Assembly: GCF_000337535.1 (NCBI RefSeq)
Contig: NZ_AOIP01000031.1
Span: 162,943 to 226,942 of the forward strand
Reading direction: 5' to 3'
DNA length: 64,000 nucleotides
Source: Natrialba aegyptia DSM 13077
GTDB lineage: Archaea; Halobacteriota; Halobacteria; Halobacteriales; Natrialbaceae
The notes beneath the pieces were generated by a model. The model was not told the DNA's origin. It was given only the letters and a program-made list of their open reading frames with translations, and ran no database searches. Position numbers and translations under genes: made by a program. Positions 50,660 to 64,000 of the stretch are shown one piece after another (the first letter of the stretch is position 1; the number at the start of each line of letters is the position of its first letter).

Positions 50660-50896
50660 TTACCCTCCGCCCGTGTCGGCGTCCGTATTCGTTGGCGCAT
50701 CCCCGGTGTCGCCAGCCGAGGCAACGGCCGGGTCGACGAGCACGACTTCCGGCGGCGCGCGACAGCCGCAGGGAGCGGCAACTGCCGTCGTCGGACCGAG
50801 GATCGTCACGGTCACGACCGCCTGGCCGCAGAGCGGACAGTCGGGCAACGAGGGACCGGTCGGTTCGTCGATCGACTTCGGGTTCTCATCCCTCAT
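50660..50896 (-). CDS. CPxCG zinc-finger protein, module copy A
   Basis: A 78-residue protein with Cys20-Cys23 (CPLCG) and Cys43-Cys45 (CGC), spaced as C-x2-C-x19-C-x-C. The core VTVTILGPTTAVAAPCGCRAPP is shared with the protein at 63499-63792, including exact Cys spacing; the tails differ. Both genes lie head to head with a conserved RNA-like element. Function unknown; the fold is a small zinc ribbon. Confidence 0.78.
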   Translation of the reverse strand: MRDENPKSIDEPTGPSLPDCPLCGQAVVTVTILGPTTAVAAPCGCRAPPEVVLVDPAVASAGDTGDAPTNTDADTGGG

Positions 50897-50981
50897 CGTC
50901 GCCTCCGGCGGGCAGTCGCGATGGTGACTGTCTCCGTGAGCGATGGCGATGAGACTCGAAGCGAGCGATACGTCGGTCGTG

Positions 50982-50999
50982 CGGGATGTTTATGTCCCG
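50982..50999 (+). promoter_or_regulatory. Palindromic box A promoter, copy A
   Basis: CGGGA and TCCCG bracket TTTAT (50989-50993), giving an inverted repeat around a haloarchaeal box A. The first T of the box lies 28 bases upstream of a conserved ATGG, the same spacing as at 63869-63886. Confidence 0.6.
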
Positions 51000-51013
51000 G
51001 TAGAATGAATCCG

Positions 51014-51118
51014 AACATGGCTGCAAACCCTCCACGGGGTTTGGAAGCCACGTCTCGGGTGTGTCCGCACCCGGGGCATTTTGCGTCTGCCCGTTGTGGC
51101 TTCCGTTCTAATCGTTGA
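51014..51118 (+). ncRNA. Candidate structured RNA, copy A
   Basis: The predicted transcript begins near 51017. GGAAGCCAC (51043-51051) pairs with GTGGCTTCC (51096-51104) as a 9-bp closing helix. Inside are CGGGTG/CACCCG (51056-51061 with 51068-51073) and GGGCA/TGCCC (51074-51078 with 51088-51092). A 5' hairpin AAACCC/GGGTTT lies at 51025-51042. The 3' tail is GTTCTAATC. Compared with copy B, substitutions keep the helices, and a 4-base indel breaks any shared 5' reading frame. I know of no named RNA of this shape. Confidence 0.55.
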
Positions 51119-51298
51119 TGTGTGGTGTCTTATATCTACTGTTACTTGACGCGAACGGAGGGGTGAGTACCGGCGTTCTTGCGGGATGCTGCTGCGACGT
51201 GCCGTGTCCTCACTGGTGCGAAACGAAGCAGTAACCGGACGGTCTCGGACACCGGTACCAAACCGATGAGTCAGTCAAAATAGCGTTCGCAGCGGCCG

Positions 51299-53030: not shown

Positions 53031-53264
53031 TCACTCTGCGTTCGGCTGTGGCGGAAATTCCTCGTCTTCGTCGTCGAGTTCGACGAACGATGTCGCGCCG
53101 CACTGACAGCCGGTCCGCTGCCCGATCAGAAGAATCTTGCCGTCGGGCCATTTTTCGGCCGCGTAGGCCGTTCCGCATTCCGAACAGACGGCAGCAACCT
53201 TCTGTGTTCCTGATTCGTGGTCCTCGGCATCACCCGACGAGTTCGGTGACGACTCCTTCGACAT
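53031..53264 (-). CDS. Small zinc-ribbon protein (77 aa)
   Basis: A 77-residue protein with Cys27-Cys30 (CSECG) and Cys53-Cys55 (CQCG), acidic ends and a short beta-hairpin between the pairs. The C-x2-C ... C-x-C layout is that of the CPxCG-like small proteins elsewhere in the window, but the core sequence differs and no RNA-like element adjoins it. Function unknown. Confidence 0.75.
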   Translation of the reverse strand: MSKESSPNSSGDAEDHESGTQKVAAVCSECGTAYAAEKWPDGKILLIGQRTGCQCGATSFVELDDEDEEFPPQPNAE

Positions 53265-63498: not shown

Positions 63499-63792
63499 TT
63501 ACGCCTCGTCGGATCGGTCGGGTACGGGCGGCGCAACGCGACACCCACACGGCCCCGCAACCGCGTCCGTCGGCCCGATCATCGTCGTTCGCGTGATCGG
63601 CTCCCCGCATCGCGGGCACGTTCTGAACTCGTGGTCGGTCTCGCGATCGGGATTTTCGTGTGCGTCACCGGGGTGTTCGTGCGTTTCGCCCGGATTCTTG
63701 TGTGCGTTACCGGGGTTCTCGTGTGCGTCGGTCCGGGTTTCGGTCGGTTCGGTATCCGGTTCGCCGACTCCGTCGTCGTCACTCCGGGTCAT
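63499..63792 (-). CDS. CPxCG zinc-finger protein, module copy B, with His-rich heptad repeats
   Basis: A 97-residue paralogue of the protein at 50660-50896. Cys59-Cys62 (CPRCG) and Cys82-Cys84 (CGC) keep the C-x2-C-x19-C-x-C spacing, and GPTDAVAGPCGCR matches the core of copy A. Residues 22-49 are four heptads of the type DAHENPG/NAHKNPG, adding a His-rich N-terminus absent from copy A. The gene faces a second copy of the RNA-like element. Confidence 0.78.
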   Translation of the reverse strand: MTRSDDDGVGEPDTEPTETRTDAHENPGNAHKNPGETHEHPGDAHENPDRETDHEFRTCPRCGEPITRTTMIGPTDAVAGPCGCRVAPPVPDRSDEA

Positions 63793-63868
63793 TCCTGATA
63801 CCTCGTGACTCCGCCGAATTCGGACGGTAGAGACGGCAGTACGCGGACGATTCGACTCGTCAATCGTG

Positions 63869-63886
63869 CGGGATGTTTATATCCCG
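63869..63886 (+). promoter_or_regulatory. Palindromic box A promoter, copy B
   Basis: CGGGAT and ATCCCG bracket GTTTAT, nearly identical to 50982-50999. The box lies 28 bases before the conserved ATGG. Confidence 0.6.
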
Positions 63887-63900
63887 TGAGAATGTACGCA

Positions 63901-64000
63901 AACATGGCTTCAAACCGCACGGGTTGGAAGCCACGCCTTGGGTGTTGGTGCACCCGGGGCACTTTCGTACCCCACGTTGTGGCTTCCGTTCTAATTGGTA
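63901..64000 (+). ncRNA. Candidate structured RNA, copy B (may run past the window)
   Basis: GGAAGCCAC (63926-63934) pairs with GTGGCTTCC (63979-63987). The inner helix GGGTG/CACCC is at 63940-63944 with 63951-63955, and GGGG/CCCC at 63956-63959 with 63970-63973. The 5' hairpin is AACC/GGTT (63913-63925). The body between the 9-bp strands aligns with copy A without gaps and keeps the GTTCTAAT tail. The downstream end lies beyond the window. Confidence 0.55.

Follow-up and report, generated by a model that had tools for sequence, protein, structure and literature searches.

A putative translation-controlling 5′ leader RNA upstream of small zinc-ribbon genes in Natrialba aegyptia and other haloarchaea

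Two loci in a 64,000-nucleotide stretch of the Natrialba aegyptia DSM 13077 genome (the window) each pair a small zinc-finger gene with a conserved element, raising the question of whether that element is a gene in its own right or part of the neighboring one. A preliminary description took it for a separate structured RNA, read rightward and head to head with a leftward zinc-finger gene, the two forming a two-part system. Both copies lie at the positions given there, both proteins carry CPxCG-(19 aa)-PCGC with identical spacing, and the element is about 130 bp long, with a mean column identity of 74% overall and a much higher one in the core. Also present, and co-varying, are the closing helix of 9 bp (GGAAGCCAC/GTGGCTTCC) and the internal hairpins. 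The repetition is far beyond chance: with up to two mismatches allowed, the N. aegyptia genome has 16 matches to a 16-mer of the element and 0 to the same pattern reversed, and R2, a model of the gene strand, matches 19 places at E<=1e-15 and weaker ones besides.

Because the element is nearly symmetric, the choice of strand must rest on asymmetric evidence. Wobble pairs in the closing stem P1 favor the gene strand (34 GU vs 6 A.C in the mirror), as do those in a downstream palindrome, P4 (48 GU vs 5 AC across the copies), where two pairs run through the series GC/GU/AU and UG/UA/CG. Reading the gene strand gives 27 GNRA tetraloops, vs 3 of a special type when the top strand is read; an archaeal promoter, CRGTAG-ATATAAG, lies 25-37 nt upstream of the leader's first strand, A, in 101 unique copies; and SD-like motifs stand 5′ of 79 of the 87 chosen zinc-gene starts. 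One test dissents, as wobbles in the hairpin hp1 alone favor the top strand (36 vs 8), and the folding energy (MFE) of the whole element does not discriminate between strands. From the wobble pairs, the GNRA loops, the promoter abutting the 5′ strand, the SD-preceded starts, and an overlooked small ORF, we conclude that the predicted RNA lies on the gene (minus) strand. Models R2 and R3 represent the gene strand; R1 represents the opposite, wrong one, yet the near-symmetry of the helices lets it recover these loci too. A coding role for the top strand was rejected, its reading frames not being conserved between copies, and a top-strand sRNA failed the strand tests, hp1 alone dissenting. The structured RNA of the preliminary description and its co-conservation with small zinc-finger genes thus stand, whereas its rightward reading is contradicted by the wobbles, tetraloops, promoter, ribosome-binding site, and coupled small ORF; in place of a separate divergent RNA gene there appears to be a leader at the 5′ end of the zinc-finger mRNA, in tandem with the gene on one strand and in one transcript unit.

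On that strand the promoter comes first, then the three-helix leader, the basic ORF, and finally the zinc-ribbon gene. In copy 1, with all features on the minus strand, the promoter CAGTAG-ATATAAG (BRE plus TATA; 51129..51141) is followed by the leader, matched whole by model R3 at 50981..51107 (E 1.9e-24). The RNA is predicted to begin with strand A (GGAAGCC; 51098..51104), continue through hairpins P3 (51074..51092) and P2 (51056..51073, with double changes from GC to AU), and reach strand B (GGCUUCC; 51043..51049), which can pair with A, forming P1, or with C. The hypervariable hairpin hp1 (51025..51042) separates B from strand C (GCAGCC; 51019..51024), the alternative partner of B, which abuts the 5′ side of the small ORF's start codon. 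This ORF (50893..51018; 41 aa, beginning MFGFILPGHKHPARPTYR) was missing from the preliminary description; it contains P4 (50982..50999; gene-strand sequence CGGGAC-AUAAAC-AUCCCG) and ends in a stop codon that shares an ATGA with the start of the zinc-ribbon gene. That gene (50660..50896) encodes 78 aa with CPLCG-x19-PCGC and has an SD sequence, GGAGG, 5 nt 5′ of its ATG. Copy 2, also on the minus strand, has the same layout: leader at 63868..63990 (R3, E 8.6e-25), strand A (GGAAGCC) at 63981..63987 with its promoter just past the window end, strand B (GGCUUCC) at 63926..63932, strand C (GAAGCC) at 63906..63911, a small basic ORF at 63789..63905 (38 aa, beginning MFAYILTGYKHPARLTSR) with P4 at 63869..63886, and, again overlapping as ATGA, the zinc-ribbon gene at 63499..63792 (97 aa, CPRCG-x19-PCGC). 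Natrialbaceae copies also share a TTCC-like conserved block upstream of the promoter, at -51 to -48 from strand A, which is possibly a shared activator site.

The small ORF is tied closely to both of its neighbors. Its AUG comes right after strand C in 100 of 102 copies, one of the others having GUG and one being decayed; it is basic (net +5), mostly 31-50 codons long, and has the consensus MIAYILPGYKRPARPTYR. When the zinc-gene start was picked independently, as the first SD-preceded ATG, stop and start overlapped, usually as ATGA, in 62 of 66 cases, with 3 and 0 in the other frames. Given this coupled overlap and the SD-preceded starts, leader, small ORF, and zinc gene appear to share one transcription unit. 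At several positions (Leu6, Arg14, Arg18) third bases vary while the amino acid is constant, evidence qualified by P4, which spans codons 7-13, is surrounded by A/T-ending codons, and constrains part of the sequence; the C-terminus is not conserved. The decayed copy (L053; G000:C31:107119-107240) has lost the P4 palindrome and the start codon and has no zinc gene; an intact copy lies 1.8 kb away, and the decayed one adjoins an inverted repeat, GGATTCCTCCGGCTTTAGCCGGAGGAGG, which may itself be part of an insertion element.

The leader folds, in the predicted structure, into a three-way junction closed by A:B, with P1 holding P2 and P3. Covariation on the gene strand supports these helices (98.4% paired; six pairs with double changes; covariation score reached in 0 of 500 shuffles). 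In diverged leaders from other families, strands A, B, and C change in concert: B GGUCUUCC stands with C AAGACC in L204, B GGGUUCCC with C GAACCC in L212, and B GGCUUU with C AAAGCC in L207. B:C pairing of at least 5/6 is found in 28 of 30 and 39 of 40 distant leaders, against maxima of 15 and 20 when C was permuted (2000 trials), and is kept across sequences as different as GAAGCC, AAGACC, GAACCC, GGAAGC, and CGACCC, although models R1-R3 were given structures without B:C. Part of the basis for locating B was how well it matched C, which biases the exact pairing counts upward, and the permutation and sequence-shuffle controls deal with this only in part; with whole sequences shuffled, the mean combined score was 1.76 observed vs 1.23, and no shuffle reached the observed median. 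In constrained folds the A:B or B:C state was within 1.5 kcal/mol of the MFE in 94 of 100 and 57 of 59 leaders, the median gap between the two states being about 2 kcal/mol. The AUG is predicted to be more buried in the B:C state in 63 Natrialbaceae leaders vs 12 the other way; outside this family the predicted masking is weak (23 vs 14).

P4, too, seems to belong to the element rather than to one peptide. Among 60 leaders outside the main set, starts of hairpins of at least 5 bp peak at an offset of 18-20 from the A of the AUG, with 31 at one position, other nearby offsets mostly having 0-6 and those farther 3′ reaching 10; the interval from +15 to +26 contains a hairpin in 37 of the 60, vs 10-25 in control intervals of equal width. 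An offset of about +18 to +20 corresponds roughly to the front edge of the initiating ribosome. We find, on comparative grounds, two features expected of riboswitches: a conserved RNA structure that heads an mRNA and lies on its strand, and an alternative helix joining the aptamer stem to the gene start, seen in the B:C covariation. We call the leader riboswitch-like on this basis and do not file it as a riboswitch.

A CPxCG/PCGC protein gene lies downstream in 75 of the 102 copies (nearly all from Natrialbaceae genomes, family f1), and counting a second zinc protein, CYRC...CCxxC, found in genus g5 and a few others, where the P4 loop is altered, raises this to 87 of 102. Comparison gave no support for homology between these two groups, which have no detectable relationship. 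Archaeal CPxCG-related small zinc-finger proteins have two paired Cys patterns, at least one of them CPxCG-like, and fewer than 100 aa (PMC2253796). The class calls for a second Cys/His pattern 7-40 residues from the first, and the window proteins (78 and 97 aa) agree with it in this spacing, in the paired patterns, and in length; they differ in having PCGC, preceded by an invariant Pro (GP...PCGC), as the second pattern, and several of their relatives are longer than the class limit of 100 aa. No family in Pfam, NCBIfam, PADLOC, or PHROGs matched the zinc protein at cut-off. AlphaFold predicted it poorly from a single sequence and, with 50 relatives, with a core pLDDT of about 90; Foldseek with this core gave no match at E<=0.001, the weak matches being mainly ribosomal zinc ribbons of the L37Ae/L43Ae type. 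A further small Cys-rich protein in the window (CSECG...GCQCG; 53031-53264, minus strand) has no leader match, showing that some small zinc proteins of the region lack such a leader.

Some leader copies have neither zinc protein downstream. The ORFs directly after distant leaders encode PadR (PF03551 above cut-off), SWIM-like, CPxCG, and other CxxC proteins as well as short ORFs, and some leaders outside Natrialbaceae precede ORFs with no obvious zinc site. Copies without a zinc-finger gene were what the preliminary description itself had named as refuting it, and leaders before PadR, SWIM-like, and non-zinc ORFs accordingly end its strict two-part claim; that leader and zinc gene work together is still plausible from their co-occurrence. 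Five distant Natrialbaceae leaders (L246, L254, L257, L262, L263) lie directly 5′ of PadR-like winged-helix genes. In two others (L095 and L096; G000 C39 and C55), leader and small ORF are followed by non-zinc ORFs sharing a VxTDGLHxALRxAERDLREID-like segment, which may be a third kind of partner.

The absence of further genomic copies would also have counted against the preliminary description; about 20 were found in N. aegyptia beyond the window pair, and more in other haloarchaea. R3 matches (E<=1e-3) occur in 115 of 145 haloarchaeal genomes and 50 of 58 genera, with up to 32, 29, and 28 copies per genome. Sampling across the phylum gave 22 genomes with an R3 match, all from the same order (about 33 sampled), and 0 among about 164 other genomes. 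A second multi-copy expansion is seen in G360 and G183 (family f3, genus g73; 15 and 8 matches), whose leaders have A/B/C strands of the GAACCC type followed by tiny CxxC ORFs. Neighboring genes common to the N. aegyptia copies were not seen on inspection by eye. A viral origin was considered and rejected, an exact 19-mer being absent from viral contigs, with no phage match and no leader in the searched 50 kb of phiCh1; these searches test diverged forms only weakly. Between some orthologous loci hp1 is only 48-60% identical though the core is 95-100% identical, and one pair shows the opposite pattern; this suggests exchange among paralogous leaders. Replacement of hp1 at orthologous loci with a near-identical core is seen in L010/L023 vs L039 and in L022 vs L034/L038.

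Rfam, tRNA, and protein-family searches on the window loci returned nothing at cut-off, and neither element nor leader matched Rfam above the curated gathering threshold; judged by this and by open-licence papers, the leader family appears to be previously uncatalogued. Structured leaders have been regarded as atypical for haloarchaea, and as of 2021 the Thermococcus fluoride riboswitch was the only archaeal one established experimentally (PMC8241225). The leader resembles translational riboswitches in being a structured 5′ leader whose closing stem, P1, competes with a helix beside the translation start, but differs in that its alternative strand ends at the AUG itself, in the extra hairpin inside the ORF, in numbering up to 32 copies per genome, and in matching no Rfam family. 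The nearest known system is in Halobacterium salinarum, where a small basic ORF and a CPxCG zinc-finger gene are co-transcribed in brz-brb and bp4-OE2447F, bp4 preceding OE2447F with a 7-bp overlap (PMC2253796, PMC3184054). The gene order and overlap read from the sequence here agree with those of bp4-OE2447F, and the units are putatively co-transcribed. In brz-brb, by contrast, brb follows brz and the pair is tied to the bat/boa regulators, whereas the N. aegyptia units stand beside unrelated genes; those papers describe no conserved leader RNA for either operon.

The element, placed mostly ahead of small zinc-binding proteins and regulators, probably acts in cis as a structured 5′ leader RNA, controlling translation by alternative A:B and B:C pairing. 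The comparative data support its strand, helices, alternative pairing, coupled ORF, and distribution. Transcription would start from the BRE/TATA promoter about 25 nt upstream of strand A, and A:B pairing (P1) would close the RNA into a three-way junction that includes P2 and P3. Strand B could pair instead with C, whose end abuts the start codon of the first ORF: in the A:B state C and the AUG would be free and translation on, and in the B:C state both would be buried and translation off. P4, near the front edge of the initiating ribosome, belongs to the element. In Natrialbaceae the short basic leader ORF comes first, and its translation would deliver ribosomes to the zinc-ribbon gene; outside this family the first ORF often encodes the main protein itself. 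We infer the switching of the two states in the cell, the identity of the on-state, and the nature of the signal, candidates for which are a small ligand or a metal (zinc, for instance), the zinc protein from the same unit, and salt or temperature.

Could the zinc-ribbon protein itself bind its own leader and set the balance between A:B and B:C, in the manner of some ribosomal proteins? The high proportion of Natrialbaceae leaders followed by a zinc protein and the weak resemblance to L37Ae/L43Ae ribbons point this way, but the zinc proteins behind this leader belong to two unrelated families, PadR and other proteins lie behind distant leaders, and no Foldseek match passed the threshold; such autogenous control is unlikely. 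The divergent trans-acting RNA originally proposed could draw on hp1 and on a top-strand TATA-like TTTATA with 23-nt spacing to ATGGC. Every other strand test, the gene-strand promoter, and the coupled ORF oppose it, and this TATA-like motif forms the loop of a hairpin on the gene strand, with CTTTTTG in its place in one genus's copies, making that largely refuted model very improbable.

The two remaining alternatives assign the main role to the small ORF. Ribosome stalling on its conserved basic peptide, with the A/T-ending codons near P4, might govern the zinc gene, the RNA structure serving the stall; peptide conservation, coupling to the gene, and the placement of P4 within codons 7-13 are consistent with this, but elsewhere the same RNA and P4 often lead straight into the main ORF, whose N-terminal residues differ, indicating that the peptide is not the common part, and we think attenuation of this kind somewhat less probable than autogenous control. 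There is a smaller chance still that the small basic protein and the acidic zinc protein form a two-protein unit, brz/brb-like or toxin-antitoxin, to which the RNA is secondary: the overlap of the two genes and the bp4-OE2447F precedent suit such a unit, whereas the unconserved C-terminus of the small ORF and an RNA conservation far wider than that of either protein do not.

Returning to the leader as a translational control element, we tentatively extend it, as a possibility short of even, to a class-wide haloarchaeal riboswitch-like RNA, with 20-32 paralogous leaders per genome toggled through strand B, diversified by fast-changing hairpins, and answering one common signal, possibly zinc. 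If so, the leader regulon would comprise small zinc proteins and regulators responding to that shared signal, and haloarchaea would have in this leader their first natural riboswitch class. Its presence in most sampled haloarchaeal genomes, at 20-32 copies in some, would alter the view of structured leaders in these organisms, providing archaea with a large class of RNA switches acting on translation that can be tested, along with an entry to the function of their many small zinc proteins.
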